This document shows, one piece after another, positions 1 to 48,170 of a DNA stretch of 49,710 bases. The translations under genes were made by a program, and so were the position numbers. How positions within the stretch are numbered: position 1 is the stretch's first letter; each line of letters opens with the position of its first letter. Under the pieces are notes generated by a model that made no database searches, was not told the origin of the DNA, and saw only the letters and a program-made list of their open reading frames with translations. The stretch is taken from the NCBI GenBank assembly GCA_030827135.1, contig JAURFE010000009.1, forward strand, positions 1-49,710, read 5' to 3'. Origin of the DNA: Vicinamibacterales bacterium. GTDB taxonomy: Bacteria > Acidobacteriota > Vicinamibacteria > Vicinamibacterales > SCN-69-37.

Positions 1-38
1 GCTGTTGGTCGCGGGTTCGATCCCCGTCTCCCGCTCCA
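1..38 (+). tRNA. tRNA-Gly, 3' part only (window starts inside it)
   Basis: The T-arm (GCGGG TTCGATC CCCGT) is followed by the 3' acceptor strand CTCCCGC, discriminator T and an encoded CCA. The implied 5' acceptor GCGGGAG is typical of tRNA-Gly, and a tRNA-Gly next to tRNA-Thr upstream of tuf matches the tufB locus of many bacteria. The anticodon lies before the window, so the identity is inferred. Confidence 0.75.
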
Positions 39-44
39 GACTCC

Positions 45-89
45 GCCAGCCTTTGCGACACGCTCGCTTCGCTCGCCGCTACGGCTGGC
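45..89 (+). repeat. Inverted repeat in the tRNA-Gly/tRNA-Thr spacer
   Basis: The arms GCCAGCC (45-51) and GGCTGGC (83-89) enclose a stretch rich in CGCTCGCTTCGCTCGC-like sequence. The 154-nt spacer holds no gene. The second half (about 140-185) has further GCGAGCG/CGAGCGG-type self-complementary sequence. It may be a REP-like element or a processing hairpin between co-transcribed tRNAs. No function is shown. Confidence 0.45.
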
Positions 90-192
90 AGGCCAGCGAC
101 GGGGACGAGCAGGGTAGGGTTCGAGTTCGATGCGGGGCGCGGTTGCCGACGAAGTCGGCCGAAGCTGCGAGCGCAGCGAGCGGTTCGCGAAG

Positions 193-268
193 GCCGATGT
201 AGCTCAGTTGGCAGAGCACGTCCTTGGTAAGGACGAGGTCACCGGTTCGATCCCGGTCATCGGCTCCA
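193..268 (+). tRNA. tRNA-Thr (GGT anticodon)
   Basis: This is a complete 76-nt cloverleaf. The acceptor GCCGATG pairs with CATCGGC, and the discriminator T and CCA are encoded. The D-arm is AGCTCAGTTGGCAGAGC. The anticodon stem CGTCC/GGACG encloses the loop TTGGTAA, giving anticodon GGT. The T-arm is ACCGG TTCGATC CCGGT. It reads ACC and ACU codons. Its position 115 nt upstream of tuf is the common thrT-tuf arrangement. Confidence 0.97.
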
Positions 269-343
269 GAAGGTAAGGCCCCGGACGCGTGTGCGGCCGG
301 GTGGTGGGGCAGACGTAGTAAGCAGGCAACGCAACTTGTAGGC

Positions 344-360
344 GCAGGGTTTGGCCCTGC
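344..360 (+). other. Small hairpin in the tuf leader
   Basis: GCAGGG (344-349) can pair with CCCTGC (355-360) around the loop TTTGG, ending 23 nt before the tuf start codon. It may affect tRNA/mRNA processing or translation. This is inference from pairing only. Confidence 0.35.
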
Positions 361-383
361 CGATAGACGGAGACGAGAGAGCA

Positions 384-1583
384 ATGGCGAAGGAAAAGTT
401 TGATCGTTCAAAGCCGCACGTGAACGTGGGCACCATTGGTCACATCGACCACGGCAAGACCACGCTGACGGCGGCCCTCACAAAGGTCGCCGCGGACAAG
501 GGTTGGGCGAAGTTTGTGCCGTACGACGAAGTGGCCAAGGCGTCGGAATCGCAGGGCCGTCGTGACGACACGAAGATCCTGACCATTGCGACCAGTCACG
601 TCGAATACGGCACGCCGAACCGGCACTATGCCCACGTCGATTGTCCGGGTCACGCGGACTACATCAAGAACATGATCACGGGTGCGGCGCAGATGGACGG
701 CGCGATCCTGGTTGTGAGCGCGGTGGACGGCCCGATGCCCCAGACGCGTGAACACATCCTGCTCGCGAAGCAGGTGAACGTGCCGTACCTCGTGGTGGCG
801 CTGAACAAGTGCGACGCCGTGGACGACGCGGAACTGCTCGACCTGGTCGAGCTCGAAGTGCGCGAACTGCTCACCGGCTACGGCTTCCCCGGCGACACCC
901 TGCCGGTGGTGCGTGTCTCGGCCCTCGGCGCCCTCAACGGCGACCCGGCCGGCGTCGACACGGTGCTGAAGCTCATGGAAGCGCTCGACACCTACATCCC
1001 GATCCCGGTGCGTGAGACGGACAAGCCGTTCCTGATGCCGATCGAAGACGTGTTCTCGATCTCGGGTCGCGGCACGGTCGTCACGGGGCGTATCGAGCGC
1101 GGCAAGGTCAAGGTTGGCGAGGAAATCGAGATCGTCGGTTTCACTCCCACGCAGAAGAAGGTCGTCACGGGCGTCGAGATGTTCCGCAAGCTGCTTGATG
1201 AGGGCGTGGCGGGCGACAACGTCGGCATCCTGCTCCGCGGCGTGGAAAAGTCGGACGTCGAGCGCGGCCAGGTGTTGGCCAAGCCCGGCTCGATTCTCCC
1301 GCACACCAAGTTCAAGGCCGAGGTGTACATCCTCTCCAAGGACGAAGGGGGCCGTCACACGCCGTTCTTCAACGGCTATCGCCCGCAGTTCTACCTGCAG
1401 ACGACCGACGTCACCGGGACGTTGAACCTGCCGGAAGGCATCGAAATGGTGATGCCCGGCGACAAGACAACCATCACGGCTGAGCTGATGGCGCCGGTCG
1501 CCATCGAAAAGGGCAGCCGCTTCGCGATTCGTGAAGGGGGCCGCACTGTCGGCGCCGGCACGATCACGGAGATCACGCAGTAA
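384..1583 (+). CDS. tuf: Elongation factor Tu
   Basis: EF-Tu is the GTPase that delivers aminoacyl-tRNA to the ribosome. The protein is 399 aa, slightly longer than the E. coli form (394). The start at [16 protein letters not shown] is set by homology; an in-frame upstream TTG at 351 would add non-conserved residues. The P-loop is GHIDHGKT (19-26), and DCPGH and NKCD follow as G3 and G4. The barrel domains run to the C-terminus ([11 protein letters not shown]). Switch I is unusual: where most bacteria have RGITI, this protein has KILTI (64-68), keeping the Mg-binding Thr. I recall similar switch I sequences in acidobacterial EF-Tu. The gene sits between tRNA-Thr and rpmG. Confidence 0.98.
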
Positions 1584-1604
1584 GTCGGTAGATCGTGGCA
1601 CGCT

Positions 1605-1636
1605 GGGCGTTCGGCCTCTCGCGGGGTCGAACGCCC
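1605..1636 (+). other. Hairpin between tuf and rpmG
   Basis: GGGCGTTCG (1605-1613) and CGAACGCCC (1628-1636) form a perfect 9-bp stem with a 14-nt loop. No T-run follows, so it looks like an mRNA processing or stabilising hairpin, or a weak attenuator, not a full intrinsic terminator. Confidence 0.5.
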
Positions 1637-1670
1637 GGTCGTGTCTCTCGTTGGCTGAAGGTAGGGGATT

Positions 1671-1820
1671 ATGCGAGAAATCGTTTCGCTGGCGTGCACC
1701 GAGTGCAAACGCCGCAACTACAGCACGACCAAGAACCGCAAGAAGAGTTCTGAGCGTCTGGAGTTCAACAAGTTCTGCCGGTTCTGCCGCAAGCACACCG
1801 GTCATAAGGAATCGAAGTAA
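1671..1820 (+). CDS. rpmG: 50S ribosomal protein L33
   Basis: A 49-aa protein starting [17 protein letters not shown] and ending KHTGHKESK. It has the L33 signature and both zinc-binding pairs, CTEC and CRFC, so it is the zinc-containing (C+) form. It is a component of the large ribosomal subunit near the E site. It lies 87 nt after tuf and is followed by a repeat element and then tRNA-Trp. The rpmG-trpT-secE-nusG order is widespread in bacteria. Confidence 0.96.
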
Positions 1821-1826
1821 GCAGTT

Positions 1827-1983
1827 AATGAGGCAATGGGGCAATGAGGCAGAGGGGCAATGGAATGAGGCGATGACGCAGTCGGTCAATGGAATTCCCG
1901 CAATTGCGGCGATTCCATTCACCCATTGCCCCATTCGCCTCATTCCATTGCCTGATTGCCCCATGGCCTCATTGCCCCATTCG
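1827..1983 (+). repeat. Octamer-based inverted repeat, type A copy 1 (rpmG/tRNA-Trp gap)
   Basis: The whole 171-nt gap between rpmG and tRNA-Trp is built from 8-nt units such as AATGAGGC and AATGGGGC in tandem (from 1827), followed by their inverted complement (GCCCCATT, GCCTCATT) ending near 1983. The two arms align end to end, with one extra octamer in the right arm. The centre is CCGCAATTGCGG, itself palindromic. A 16-mer, TGGAATTCCCGCAATT (1890-1905), occurs again at 48069-48084. An RNA copy would fold into a long imperfect hairpin just before the tRNA. Confidence 0.85.
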
Positions 1984-1991
1984 GAATGTTT

Positions 1992-2067
1992 AGGCCAGTA
2001 GCTCAATTGGTAGAGCATCGGTCTCCAAAACCGAGGGCTGGGGGTTCGAGTCCCTCCTGGCCTGCCA
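1992..2067 (+). tRNA. tRNA-Trp (CCA anticodon)
   Basis: This is a complete 76-nt tRNA. The acceptor AGGCCAG pairs with CTGGCCT, and discriminator G and CCA are encoded. The anticodon stem TCGGT/ACCGA holds the loop CTCCAAA, giving anticodon CCA. The T-arm contains GGTTCGAGTCC. It lies 30 nt upstream of secE, the usual place for trpT, and is likely cut out of the secE-nusG transcript. Confidence 0.97.
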
Positions 2068-2097
2068 GTTCAACGACGCGCGGGGTGTGATCGAGAG

Positions 2098-2340
2098 ATG
2101 ACTGACAACGAAAAGGGCACAGCGGAGCAGTCAGGCGGCTGGATCGGCCGGTTCCGCCGATTCATCCCGGAGGTCAGGAGCGAGTTGGGCCGTGTGACGT
2201 GGCCGGCTCGCCGGGAAGTGTGGGCGACGACGGTGGTGGTGGTGATGGTCTCGACGTTGTTTGGTGTGTATCTGTACGCCGTCGACCTTGGCGCTTCCGC
2301 CATGGTGAGCTGGGTGTTCACCCGGTTTGGTGGAGCATGA
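2098..2340 (+). CDS. secE: Preprotein translocase subunit SecE
   Basis: An 80-aa single-span SecE, which clamps SecY in the Sec translocon. The cytosolic amphipathic helix carries the family signature ([17 protein letters not shown], about 26-42). One membrane segment follows (about 43-65) and the C-terminus is short. This matches the minimal one-TM SecE of most bacteria; the E. coli protein has three TMs. Its stop codon overlaps the nusG start in ATGA, implying translational coupling. Confidence 0.95.
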
Positions 2341-2879
2341 CCGACGTCAAGACGAAGCAGTGGTACATCATCCACACCTACTCGGGCTTTGAAAACAAGG
2401 TCCGGGAGTCGCTTGAGCAGCGTGTCCAGGCGTATGGCCTGCAGGATGAAATTGGTGAGGTGTTGATCCCCACTGAAGACATCGTGGAAAAGCGCGGCGG
2501 CAAGGAAGTGAAGAGTTCGCGGCGGTTCTTCCCGGGGTACATCCTCGTGGAGATGCACATGTCCGACAACGCGTGGCATGTGGTCAAGAACACGCCGAAG
2601 GTGACGGGGTTCGTGGGCGCGGGGTCAAAGCCGCAGCCGCTCTCGCGCGAGGAAGTTGACCAGATCCTGCATCAGGTGACGGTCGCCGCCGAGAAGCCGA
2701 AGCCCAAGTACACGTTCGACAAGGGCGATCAGGTGCGGATCAACGAGGGCCCGTTTGCGAGCTTCAACGGCACCGTGGATGAAGTCAACCACGAGCGCAA
2801 CACGTTGAAGGTGATGGTCACGATCTTCGGACGTGCGACACCGGTCGAGCTGGATTTTTTGCAAGTCGAGAAGTTGTAG
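2337..2879 (+). CDS. nusG: Transcription termination/antitermination protein NusG
   Basis: A 180-aa NusG that binds RNA polymerase and links it to Rho or the ribosome. The N-terminal NGN domain ([18 protein letters not shown], about 7-24) is followed by the C-terminal KOW domain ([19 protein letters not shown], about 124-142). The start is the ATG at 2337, overlapping the secE stop by 4 nt; upstream in-frame codons lie inside secE and are not conserved. rplK follows after 14 nt. Confidence 0.97.
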
Positions 2880-2893
2880 AGCAGAGATAGAAC

Positions 2894-3319
2894 ATGGCGA
2901 AAAAAGTTACCGCACAAGTGAAGCTCCAGATCGCCGCCGGCAAGGCGACGCCGGCGCCCCCCGTGGGCACCGCGCTCGGTCCGCACGGCGTCAACATCAT
3001 GGACTTCTGCAAGAACTTCAATGCGAAGACCGCGGCGCAGGACGGGCTCATCATCCCGGCCGTGGTGACGATCTATTCCGACCGGTCGTACACGTTCATC
3101 ACGAAGACGCCGCCGGCGCCGGTGCTGCTCAAGCGTGCGGCGAACATCGCCAAGGGCTCGGGCGTGCCGAACAAGAACAAGGTCGGCACCGTGACCGCGA
3201 AGCAGGTCGAAGAAATCGCCAAGATCAAGCTCCCGGACCTCAACACCGAGAGCCTCGAGTCGGCCATCCGGTCGGTGGCGGGGACGGCGAGGTCGATGGG
3301 GTTGGACGTGGTCGGATAG
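2894..3319 (+). CDS. rplK: 50S ribosomal protein L11
   Basis: A 141-aa L11, the same length as the E. coli protein. The N-terminal domain has the proline-rich [18 protein letters not shown] segment (about 17-34). The C-terminal 23S-rRNA-binding domain ends [13 protein letters not shown]11 sits at the GTPase-associated centre. rplK is usually joined closely to rplA, but here a 315-nt repeat-filled gap separates them. Confidence 0.98.
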
Positions 3320-3351
3320 GAACGGCGTTGAATCTGTCCAATTTCTCTGCG

Positions 3352-3563
3352 TTATTGAGGATTGAGGATGGAGGATTGAGGATTGGCAATTGTTGGATTG
3401 ATGATTGCCAGATTGATTGAAGGATTGAAGGATTGAAGGATTGAAGGATTGAAGGATTGAGAGATTGAACGATTGAGTAATTGGGCGATTGCGTGAGTGA
3501 GCTCTCAATCCGCAATTCCCCCAATCCAACAATTGCCAATCCTCCATCCTCAATCCTCAATAA
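3352..3563 (+). repeat. Heptamer/octamer foldback repeat, type B copy 1 (rplK/rplA gap)
   Basis: This fills most of the 315-nt gap. The left arm (3352-3400) and right arm (3522-3563) are perfect inverted complements over 42 bp, except for one extra 7-nt unit ATTGAGG (3375-3381) in the left arm. The arms consist of GGATTGA-type heptamers. The loop (3401-3521) holds a tandem array of period 8, GGATTGAA and variants, from 3422 to about 3493. A transcript would form a very stable hairpin between the L11 and L1 coding regions. The remaining sequence up to 3634 holds only the rplA ribosome-binding site. Confidence 0.92.
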
Positions 3564-3634
3564 CGGGCGGCGACAACGTCGCCGTATTGATGTGGGAGAA
3601 CCGAGAGGTTCGTTTGCACCACAGGAGAGTACAG

Positions 3635-4339
3635 ATGCGTAGTCGAGGCAAGAAATACCAGGCAGCCCGCGAAGCGGTGCCTGTCAGGCCGCACTCGGTC
3701 GAAGAGGCCGTTCCGCTGATTCAGAAGGTCAAGTACTCGAAGTTCGACGAGACCGTCGAAATGTCGATCCGCCTCGGTGTCGATCCGAAGCATGCCGACC
3801 AGATGGTGCGTGGCACCGTCGTGTTGCCGCACGGCCTTGGCAAGTCAAAGTCGGTGCTGGTCATCGCCAATGCGGACAAGCAGCGTGAGGCCCGCGAGGC
3901 GGGCGCGGATGAAGTCGGTGGCGAAGAGATCGTCGACAAGATTCTCGGCGGCTGGACGGCGTTTGACGCCGTCGTGGCGACGCCGGACATGATGCGCGCC
4001 GTCGGCAAACTCGGCAAGGTCCTCGGCCCCCGCGGTCTGATGCCGAACCCGAAGACCGGCACCGTCACGCTCGACGTGGCGAAGGCGGTCAACGAAATCA
4101 AGGCCGGCAAGGTCGAGTTCCGTGTGGACAAGGCCGGTGTCGTGCATGCCCCGATCGGCCGGATCTCGTTCGCGAGCGACAACCTCGTGGCGAACGCACA
4201 CGCGCTGCTCGGCAGCATCCTCAAGGCGAAGCCGTCGGCCGCCAAGGGCCGGTATGTCAGGAGCGTCACCATGTCGTCGACGATGGGCCCCGGGGTCGTG
4301 ATCGAGACGTCAAACATGGACGTTCTGGTCAAGCACTAG
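3635..4339 (+). CDS. rplA: 50S ribosomal protein L1
   Basis: A 234-aa L1 with the usual length for the family (E. coli 234). The start [13 protein letters not shown] is chosen by homology and by an AGGAGAG ribosome-binding site 9 nt upstream; the frame is open back to 3497, but only across the repeat. The signature [14 protein letters not shown] is present. L1 forms the L1 stalk at the E site, and in many bacteria it represses its own operon by binding the L11-L1 mRNA leader. No such site was identified here. Confidence 0.98.
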
Positions 4340-4355
4340 GCGGCGGAGAACAATC

Positions 4356-4895
4356 ATGGCAGTTACACGAGCAGAAAAAGCAACCGAGCTGCAGCAGCTC
4401 ACCGCCGCGTTCCAGGGCACGGATACCGCCGTGCTGGTGGATTACCGGGGTGTGACCGTGCCGCAAGTGACCGACCTGCGCCAGAAGATCCGCAAGACGG
4501 GGTCGCAATACATCGTCGTCAAGAACACCCTGGCGAAGCGCGCGTCGAGCGGCACGCCGTTCGAGGCATTAAACAAGCACTTCGTCGGACAGACGGCGGT
4601 CGTGTTTACCGGTTCGGATCCGGTGGCGATGGCCAAGACGCTGACGACGGCGCTGAAGGACCTGCCGCAGGCGAGCATCAAGGCGGCCGTGGTGCAGGGG
4701 CAGCTGGTGCCGGCGTCGGCGATGGCCGACCTGGCCAACATGCCGAGCAAGCCGGAACTCTACGCGAAGTTGCTCTACGTGCTGAACGCGCCGGCGCAGC
4801 AGCTGGTCACGGTCCTGTCGGCCGTGCAGCGCGACTTCGTGACGGTCCTCGCAGAGGTCCAGAAAAAGAAGGAAGCCGGGCCGCAGACGGATTGA
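4356..4895 (+). CDS. rplJ: 50S ribosomal protein L10
   Basis: A 179-aa L10, which anchors L7/L12 dimers at the stalk base. The N-terminus (ATELQQLTAAFQGTDTAVLV, VDYRGVTVPQ) is typical. The C-terminal helix ends QKKKEAGPQTD. The stop TGA (4893-4895) lies inside the first unit, GGATTGA, of the following repeat array, so the repeat supplies the stop codon. The gap from rplA is only 16 nt, too short for the L10-binding leader found upstream of rplJ in E. coli. Confidence 0.97.
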   Translation: MAVTRAEKATELQQLTAAFQGTDTAVLVDYRGVTVPQVTDLRQKIRKTGSQYIVVKNTLAKRASSGTPFEALNKHFVGQTAVVFTGSDPVAMAKTLTTALKDLPQASIKAAVVQGQLVPASAMADLANMPSKPELYAKLLYVLNAPAQQLVTVLSAVQRDFVTVLAEVQKKKEAGPQTD

Positions 4896-4945
4896 GGATT
4901 GAGGATTGGGGATTGAGGATTGGGGATTGAGGATTTGGATTGGGC
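4889..4945 (+). repeat. Heptamer tandem array, type B copy 2 (rplJ/rplL gap)
   Basis: Head-to-tail units GGATTGA, GGATTGA, GGATTGG, GGATTGA, GGATTGG, GGATTGA occupy 4889-4930, then decay into related GATTG-containing sequence to about 5035. No inverted arm is visible here, unlike copy 1 at 3352-3563. The unit sequence is the same as in the rplK/rplA element. The array starts inside the rplJ coding end. Confidence 0.88.
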
Positions 4946-5049
4946 GATTGCCGATGCAGATTCGTGATTGCCAATAATCGATTGCGGGATACGCAGATTT
5001 CAGTTTTTAGATTGTCAGATTGTCGATTCGATTCATAGGAGAGAGAGCA

Positions 5050-5439
5050 ATGGCAGACGTGACGCAGCAGCAGGTGGTGGACTACATCAAGGGAATTTCG
5101 GTGCTTGAGCTCTCGCAGCTCGTGAAGACGCTCGAGACGGAACTCGGCGTGTCCGCCGCGGCGGCGATGCCGATGATGGTGGCGGGCGCGGGTGGCGGCG
5201 GCGCGGCCGCGGCCCCGGCGGAAGAGCAGACCGAATTCACGGTGACCCTGACCGACGTCGGCGGCAACAAGATCAACGTGATCAAGGTTGTCCGCGAAGT
5301 GACCAGCCTGGGCCTGAAGGAAGCGAAGGACCTCGTCGAGGCCGCGCCGAAGGCCATCAAGGAAGGCGTGTCGAAGGACGAAGCGGCCGGCATCAAGAAG
5401 AAGTTCGAAGAAGCCGGCGCGAAGGTCGAAATCAAGTAG
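5050..5439 (+). CDS. rplL: 50S ribosomal protein L7/L12
   Basis: A 129-aa L7/L12, the multicopy stalk protein that recruits translation factors. It has an N-terminal dimerisation domain (about 1-38) and an Ala/Gly/Pro-rich hinge (about 39-60). The conserved C-terminal domain runs from [19 protein letters not shown] to [14 protein letters not shown]. The start is the ATG at 5050 behind ATAGGAGAGAGAG; the in-frame ATG at 5020 precedes this ribosome-binding site and is not conserved. Confidence 0.98.
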
Positions 5440-5553
5440 TTCGGGCCTGCACAACGAGCCAGGGAGGGCTGGGAGAGTTTTCGCACACACCTCTCAGTCC
5501 TCTCGATCCCGTTGTGTGTTCCTGTCTGTTCGACGCGTTGCTCTGATTTGACG

Positions 5554-5614
5554 GCCGGCGTCCGTGTACGCCGGCTGCTACTATTGGCCACGGCGTGTGC
5601 GCGCACACCCGTGG
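5554..5614 (+). other. Two hairpins in the rplL-rpoB gap (possible attenuator/processing site)
   Basis: The 207-nt gap contains GCCGGCGT (5554-5561) pairing with ACGCCGGC (5568-5575), then CCACGG...CCGTGG (5588-5614) around the perfect palindrome GTGTGCGCGCACAC. Neither has a T-run. In E. coli the rplL-rpoB gap holds an attenuator and an RNase III site, so a similar role is plausible but unproven. Confidence 0.5.
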
Positions 5615-5646
5615 CGGGATCGGCACGGCCTCGAGGATGAATCTGA

Positions 5647-9972
<4,326 letters not shown>

Positions 9973-45495: not shown

Positions 45496-45566
45496 TCGGA
45501 ACCTCGGAACTACGGACCCTCGGAACTACGGACCTTCGGGACCCCGGAACCCCGGAACTTCGCAGC
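45495..45566. repeat. Octamer tandem array, type C (dsbD / spermidine-synthase-like gap)
   Basis: Eight period-8 units (TTCGGAAC, CTCGGAAC, TACGGACC, CTCGGAAC, TACGGACC, TTCGGGAC, CCCGGAAC, CCCGGAAC) run from 45495 to 45558, with a decayed unit to 45566. The array begins at the dsbD start codon on the minus strand and ends about 30 nt before the -10 of the plus-strand gene. It fills most of the divergent promoter region. Confidence 0.88.
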
Positions 45567-48048: not shown

Positions 48049-48052
48049 CAAA

Positions 48053-48170
48053 TAGGGCGATGGGGCAGTGGAATTCCCGCAATTGGTGAGTGAGTCAGTG
48101 GAATGACCCATTCCGTCACTGTGGAAATTCCATTCGCCCATTGCCCCATAGCCCCATAGCCTCATTCTCT
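48053..48170 (+). repeat. Octamer-based inverted repeat, type A copy 2
   Basis: The gap after the spermidine-synthase-like gene holds AATAGGGCGATGGGGCAGTGG-type sequence and, downstream, its approximate inverted complement (GCCCATTGCCCCATAG, about 48137-48160). The centre has its own stem (CAGTGGAATG against CATTCCGTCACTG). The 16-mer TGGAATTCCCGCAATT (48069-48084) is identical to 1890-1905, 46 kb away. It ends just before the next promoter. Confidence 0.82.

Follow-up and report, generated by a model that had tools for sequence, protein, structure and literature searches.

Overall, the analysis leads us to read the gap between rpmG and the tRNA-Trp gene as one copy of a dispersed, non-coding inverted element, which would have been copied into gene junctions and would often have taken over the stop codon of the neighbouring gene, a reading to which we give a probability of about 0.6. 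The window analysed here is the whole stretch of 49,710 nucleotides taken from contig JAURFE010000009.1 of a Vicinamibacterales bacterium (assembly GCA_030827135.1), whose genome is called G000 below. The element is shown to be dispersed over this genome, with a recurrent anatomy, a preferred position, a strand rule, an overlap with stop codons, and relatives free of the array at the same places. Its family, built of AATGRGGC octamers, is one of several in the genome and belongs to the wider class of intergenic arrays with 7-8-nt units found in Xanthomonas and Nostoc, as described in 2015.

Table 1. Features of the window around the octamer element and further repeats of the two families (positions in the window)
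Feature	Position	Strand	Details
Left arm	1827..1858	+	octamers AATGAGGC, AATGGGGC, AATGAGGC, AGAGGGGC; last with two variant bases
Inner box AATGGAAT	1859..1866	+	mirrored at 1942-1949
Core, 75 nt, looser octamers (AATKNNNN-like)	1867..1941	.	mirrored halves 81% alike
Mirrored inner box ATTCCATT	1942..1949	-	
Right arm	1950..1981	-	four octamers of type GCCYCATT; one variant base in each of two
rpmG (ribosomal protein L33), upstream neighbour	1671..1820	+	Pfam PF00471
tRNA-Trp (CCA), downstream neighbour	1992..2067	+	10 nt past the element
GGATTGR-heptamer family element, rplK-rplA	3351..3564	.	box GGATTGGCAATTG, ends GTTATTG...CAATAAC
GGATTGR array, no clear mirrored arm	4889..4950	+	first unit holds the rplJ TGA stop (ORF ends 4895)
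Degenerate second octamer-family copy	48051..48166	.	

The element at 1827-1981 (Table 1) consists of two inward-facing halves of about 78 nt, each made of octamers, the box AATGGAAT and looser octamers, and takes up nearly the whole gap 1821-1991. Its left arm starts 6 nt past the stop codon of rpmG, with the G-rich strand being the coding strand. TRF reports a period of 8 at 1827-1863 and at 1922-1981, and 1827-1873 is complementary to 1935-1981 at 83%. These results bear out the sequence-only reading, which had seen octamers of the AATGRGGC type, first direct and then inverted, just before tRNA-Trp (the tRNA begins at 1992), and the lack of a common period, which would have spoken against it, does not apply. 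The extra octamer that it placed in the right arm, however, disappears when the arms are anchored on their boxes (AATGGAAT / ATTCCATT), which leaves four units on each side of the core. With a shift of one octamer, 1827-1851 matches 1949-1973 at 92%, because the A/G variants get lined up, and this shifted alignment is probably what was taken for an additional unit. We take the genes in window 1-6000 to be tuf, rpmG, tRNA-Trp, secE, nusG, rplK, rplA, rplJ, rplL and the start of rpoB; the Pfam matches there are NusG and L33, and the names besides these two and tRNA-Trp come from the usual gene order and the sequence of the open reading frames. As RNA, 1820-1991 is predicted to fold with -102 kcal/mol, compared with -57.6 (sd 4.2) for 200 dinucleotide shuffles, none of which folds as well (z -10.66). 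On the Rfam side, tRNAs alone pass the curated cut-offs in window 1-6000, by which a known RNA family is ruled out there; the element is matched by microRNA models of eukaryotes at scores under their cut-offs.

Based on a BLAST search of the gap against its own genome (3.24 Mb, 80 contigs), 85 rows are obtained, many of about 155 nt, which correspond to at least about 40 places on both strands, a lower bound with 40 of 46 first-look candidates scored. In the fetched places we count 40 array sites with two or more units, two of which, some 200 nt from each other, are arms of a single element, and several of which are single arms of 2-3 units; 21 of the 40 are full pairs, and solo halves exist as well (e.g. 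L016, L029, L027, L034). The genome-wide scan proposed earlier also finds the array: the pattern (AATGRGGC)3AATG with at most 2 mismatches gives 55 + 52 matches, overlapping ones included, and the backward control gives 0, which excludes chance. The full form has 2-5 AATGRGGC octamers (mostly 4 in an arm), then AATGGAAT, 45-106 nt of core and the mirrored counterpart, where the presence of the box in all 21 full copies follows from their having been chosen by it. With 2 mismatches allowed at most, 217 units were taken in: 106 of them have A at position 5, 110 have G and one has C, no other position is fixed in fewer than 203, and the A/G choice differs between neighbouring units in 93 of 146 cases (p 0.001). 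The full copies are diverse, with a median identity of 73% over 210 pairs and none above 87%. Only five of the 40 sites lie within 300 nt of a tRNA, two of the five being arms of one element, so that adjacency to tRNAs does not define the family, and the putative role in tRNA release suggested from the sequence is unsupported.

The octamer sites are shown to concentrate at gene ends. Sixteen of the 40 lie in convergent gaps, 20 in same-strand gaps and 4 in divergent gaps, and the reference of 512 adjacent gene pairs from 33 sampled stretches has 81, 349 and 82 respectively. Convergent gaps are thus enriched (p 4e-4 against the 512 pairs), and divergent gaps are depleted when compared with gaps of at least 40 nt (71 of 243 divergent; p 0.006), with p 0.22 against all pairs. 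Gene calling relied on a codon-usage script of our own that overlooks small genes; rpmG was put in by hand for the site count, the gene-end distances, the strand-rule count and the deduplicated gene-end list, and is absent from the calls behind the hairpin-gap, C61_42k, orthologous-gap and array-period counts. In all, 42 distinct gene 3' ends (45 listed rows minus 3 doubles) meet the 5' edge of a same-strand octamer array and 29 of them overlap it. For 22 of the 42 the stop codon is the TGA inside a unit, namely that of unit 1 for 12 ends (at -5), of unit 2 for 5 (-13), of unit 3 for 3 (-21) and of unit 4 for 2 (-29); the remaining ends are 7 other overlaps, 12 that stop 1-8 nt short of the array (+1 to +8) and one that stops 17 nt short of it (+17). 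The array then encodes the tail of the protein, as in ..MRQ* and ..NEAMGQ*, and annotators should be warned that last residues such as ..MRQ or ..MGQ can be repeat-coded. By frame the array-supplied stops divide as 14/5/3 (p 0.009), a small preference. All 22 follow AA, compared with 11 of 253 TGA stops overall, which is a weak point since it is nearly built into the definition of the unit. Around 1500-1530 of L053 and L050 (G004 and G001) octamer arrays are also seen by eye to enter the downstream gene, with the AATG of the unit resembling a start codon.

At C61_42k, a 170-nt element in G000 sets the convergent stops 159 nt apart and the right gene ends in an array-coded MRQ*; G003 is without the element and its convergent genes overlap by 50 nt, and the stops are spaced by 56 nt in G004 and 207 nt in G006, each with its own repeat. 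The sequence of the right gene is kept to about EAAVA.AL.ERV and then runs into a species-specific tail. G002 has a palindrome at this place too, yet its right gene continues through the palindrome, and the two genes overlap by 14 nt. At C61_52k the array begins on a native gene end that is already unit-like (GGG CAG TGA in G004).

A strand rule holds for the short-unit arrays of the G000 and G004 samples. In these samples, arrays of 7-10 nt that have a gene 3' end as their nearest end, within 40 nt, are G-rich on the sense strand in 40 cases, C-rich in 4 and neutral in 2 (p 2e-8, each array of an element entering separately); next to 5' ends the balance is 18 C-rich to 8 G-rich (p 0.08). Arrays near 3' ends in 11 relatives of the order number 9 G-rich and 3 C-rich, which is not significant (p 0.15), and heptamers make up 23 of the 27 non-coding arrays there. 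None of these arrays turned up in 50 kb of E. coli. Non-coding arrays in G000 have periods of 8 (48 arrays), 7 (26), 10 (8) and 9 (1), and those in G004 of 7 (20), 8 (11), 10 (3) and 9 (2), with no period of 6 in either, in a count of periods and stop content that took in four G000 stretches chosen for elements. The near absence of periods divisible by three is striking but is not leaned on, because arrays that stay in frame may have been absorbed into genes by the caller, and heptamers are common in bacteria according to PMC4692102. A strict six-letter scan for inverted arrays gave few cases and flagged coding repeats as well.

The octamer array is present in 7 of 60 genomes (the own one plus 59 relatives) and absent from the other 53 (backward control 0). 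The seven comprise six of the seven genomes of the genus, the own included, and one from a different genus within the family. Scanned for exact matches, GTDB contigs gave one named record, an 'Acidobacteria bacterium' MAG (own-genome records possibly left out). The exact (AATGRGGC)3 has no match in viral contigs, and a phage origin is rejected on this exact scan. Ten element sites of the own genome were tried against G004 and 8 were alignable; the family is there at one of the 8 (C51_121k), with a different core. For the gap between rpmG and tRNA-Trp, both anchors were located by BLAST in 8 of 17 nusG loci, to which G005 was added. The gap has a GGTTGGGC-type array in G004, an inverted GGTGGTAGCC array in G014 and a short AATGAGGC array in G002, the last being a short version of the array at 1827-1981; no clear array is visible by eye in G005, G008, G010, G013, G018 and G033. 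The alternative that the gap is a normal leader conserved in related genomes does not hold in the relatives seen. At C11_672k, the inverted repeat differs in each of G000, G004, G003 and G006. In G000 and G004 the gap contains nothing but repeats, and in G003 a gene for a DCC1-like thiol-disulfide oxidoreductase (PF04134; L120:6063-6440) lies between inverted AGGTGGGG arrays, which shows that inverted arrays can enclose a gene.

The family at rplK-rplA, with GGATTGR heptamers, is likewise dispersed and follows the same plan of outer array, inner box, degenerate core and mirrored half, and further families of this style are present in other stretches of the genome. In the window itself, a TCGGAACC octamer array of another family of like style lies in a divergent gap at 45496-45562. 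The two units, AATGRGGC and GGATTGR, are unrelated in sequence, as had been noted at the outset. The proposal made with that remark, of a shared mechanism of formation rather than a shared sequence, stands in part: the common architecture is found, both families being dispersed with an outer array, a recurrent box and a degenerate core in mirrored halves, but inversion of one arm into the other fails for the octamer family. Its arms are 0.912 identical within copies and 0.914 between copies (P 0.63, 21 copies), and mirrored units make the same A/G choice in 43 of 85 comparisons, with a shuffle mean of 42.5 (23 arm pairs enter this count, two sites adding a second, nested pair). The origin of the family by inversion of one arm is thereby ruled out, and pairing is not kept position by position. 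The core halves are 0.684 identical within and 0.648 between copies (P 0.024, 21 copies). Each half follows one shared grammar. For the GGATTGR family, the ends are 0.891 identical within copies versus 0.840 between (P 0.01, 10 copies with intact boxes), and a cruder comparison of whole halves in 12 copies gives no difference (P 0.64); the two families may therefore differ in the likeness of their arms.

We suggest that the octamer element would be copied into the junctions between genes, for the most part convergent or same-strand, with its G-rich strand as the coding strand at the stop codon. The copies would arrive by copying and not by growth in place, possibly through a transposase acting in trans or through template switching of replication at short homologies, and would persist where they are nearly harmless, that is at gene ends. 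Most likely the element is tolerated because it brings stop codons. With A at position 5 the unit contains TGA (AATGA), and since a period of 8 is not divisible by three, a stop should come up in each frame within three units; the mirror layout should provide stops on both strands, hence for both genes of a convergent pair. The elements would also be transcribed as a long hairpin. Three-frame stops as the purpose of the whole class are ruled out: taking all families together, 42 of the 82 array units of G000 and 18 of the 34 of G004 have no stop codon on either strand, so that stop supply cannot explain the entire class. Some observations run against the copying account even for the octamer family. 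The divergence of the 21 full copies speaks against recent copy-and-paste, yet the family is at only one of the 8 alignable G004 sites. No transposase is tied to the family, the Y1 genes being flanked by other repeats, and the unit-like native end of C61_52k in G004 also fits growth in place. Exceptions to the gene-end account are the 4 divergent sites among the 40, the read-through at C61_42k in G002, and the strand rule without significance in the 11 relatives.

A different account, which we regard as rather unlikely, is that the hairpin itself is selected at gene 3' ends, where it would end or protect transcripts as a terminator or mRNA stabiliser. The sequence would then be free to change while the hairpin stays, so that families could replace each other. 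The strong fold of the element favours it, and so does the distribution of hairpin gaps (z < -3) over 25 stretches of G000, the window included, with 33 of 125 same-strand, 8 of 23 convergent and 4 of 59 divergent gaps; the 11 order relatives, however, have 25 of 149, 4 of 27 and 6 of 33 respectively, with no bias by gap type. Hairpins also tend to occur in the same gaps of G000 and G004. There are 101 orthologous gap pairs, of which 52 were dropped for having one gap below 30 nt, and the remaining 49 divide into 11 with hairpins in both, 7 in G000 only, 6 in G004 only and 25 in neither (p 0.004). The set includes the window gap 1584-1991, which contains rpmG and without which p is 0.007, and some of its stretches were picked for a G000 element; the 28 gaps from stretches not so picked give 5 / 3 / 5 / 15 (p 0.08), which weakens the argument. 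By eye, the repeats are clearly unlike in 5 of the 11 shared hairpin gaps (C11:665329, 668880, 672596, 713255 and C61_42k), as replacement under a selected hairpin would have it, of the same kind in 4 (C11:655628, 724571, 844288 and C51_121k) and mixed in 2 (C11:698055 and the window gap, rpmG included). Gaps that tolerate independent insertions predict an equal co-occurrence. The arm comparison likewise disfavours a selected hairpin, with mirrored A/G positions independent, arms not more alike within copies and core halves only slightly so. A T-tract terminator (G+C-rich hairpin followed by a T-tract) was sought in 1500-2400 and none was found. Genes around the 1827-1981 copy and the rplK-rplA copy are usually co-transcribed, and a terminator would be costly between such genes.

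Growth in place appears decidedly improbable to us. By this account, arrays would arise by slippage from a native stop-codon seed such as GGGCARTGA, followed by mirroring through template switching, with no dispersal. It would fit the native end of C61_52k in G004, unit-like with no octamer array there, the diversity of the copies, and the periods of the non-coding arrays in the sampled order genomes, mostly 7 and 8. Many unrelated sites, however, have the box AATGGAAT and similar core motifs in common, and independent growth would not produce the same grammar of about 78 nt over and over; nor are the arms more alike within copies than between. Very improbable in our estimate is that the element is a mobile palindrome of the RAYT/REPIN type, which a host Y1 transposase would move. 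The layout is similar, with facing halves, solo halves and intergenic positions, GTAG REPs also give their neighbours stop codons according to PMC3733652, and two Y1_Tnp genes were found in the genome. Both, however, are flanked by repeats other than the octamer family, one by AAAAAGACGTCGGGTGTCTTTTT palindromes and the other by GTAG-type hairpins, and the ends of the octamer family have no GTAG or CGTC tag, its unit being a tandem octamer. As for the Y1 loci themselves, the RAYT-type gene at L138:311-1062 (G000 C11:1080311-1081062) lies between identical 51-nt palindrome copies, the G004 Y1 gene at L170 is flanked by a different palindrome, and the second Y1 genes at L169:3008-3766 (G000 C51) and L171:4820-5594 (G004 C19) are found amid clusters of GTAG-type hairpins.

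Going further, inverted arrays of 7-8 nt might be a general gene-end device in several phyla, in which the G-rich strand faces the stops and the unit sequence is interchangeable, an extension that we hold only as a doubtful conjecture. If it were true, such a device would offer stops and a hairpin on both strands, with the unit replaced by whichever family is currently amplified in the species. Several of the gaps hold unlike arrays in sister species, and this, together with the link to stop codons, makes both the origin and the function of the arrays testable.

Among known systems, the ERIC repeats are palindromic. They are not known to have octamer arrays, and they are set beside the octamer family by description. 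The ERIC-type repeat of Enterobacteria is reported as intergenic and, with 127 bp (PMC2759123), similar in length to the element. The TAACTGA heptamer arrays of Beggiatoaceae (PMC4679880) share with the octamer family the intergenic position, the short unit and the stop codon within the unit, but they are direct and lie mostly upstream of start codons, with 169 direct sets and one inverted repeat. REPs and REPINs, as described in PMC3116915 and PMC3733652, resemble the family in their facing halves, solo halves, mostly same-strand and convergent gaps and stop-supplying ends, GTAG REPs lending TAG to their neighbours. Unlike these, the octamer family has no GTAG/CGTC tag and no RAYT beside it, and its half is a tandem array where the REP / REPIN unit is a small palindrome.

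For arrays of this sort in Acidobacteria, no description was found in the open-licence literature. The closest likeness is with the heptamers of Xanthomonas and Nostoc, GGGAATC and GGGGA(C/T)T, described by Rehm et al. in 2015 (PMC4692102), who are reported to have found no function for them. In that study the heptamers have the G-rich coding strand within 50 nt of stop codons or overlapping them and, ahead of the following gene, carry the G-rich strand as the non-coding one. Four units are preferred, inverted pairs occur in 70 and 75 cases, and the arrays are scarce between divergent genes and vary between related species. The octamer family shares the placement rule, the overlap with stops, the inverted pairs and the depletion in divergent gaps; its arms are G-rich and tandem, with 2-5 units, mostly 4. 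It differs in the 8-nt unit with one A/G position, the TGA within the unit, the box and core, and the phylum. Quadruplex potential is a feature of the class in the same study, but the canonical motif (four G-tracts of at least 3) is present in only one of the 21 octamer copies, by which a G-quadruplex reading of this family is ruled out, with a looser two-G pattern in all 21. On the same strand and placement rule we place the octamer family with arrays of that kind, and what is new here is to find the rule in an acidobacterial lineage, with unrelated units, and with the TGA of units 1-4 serving as stop codons.
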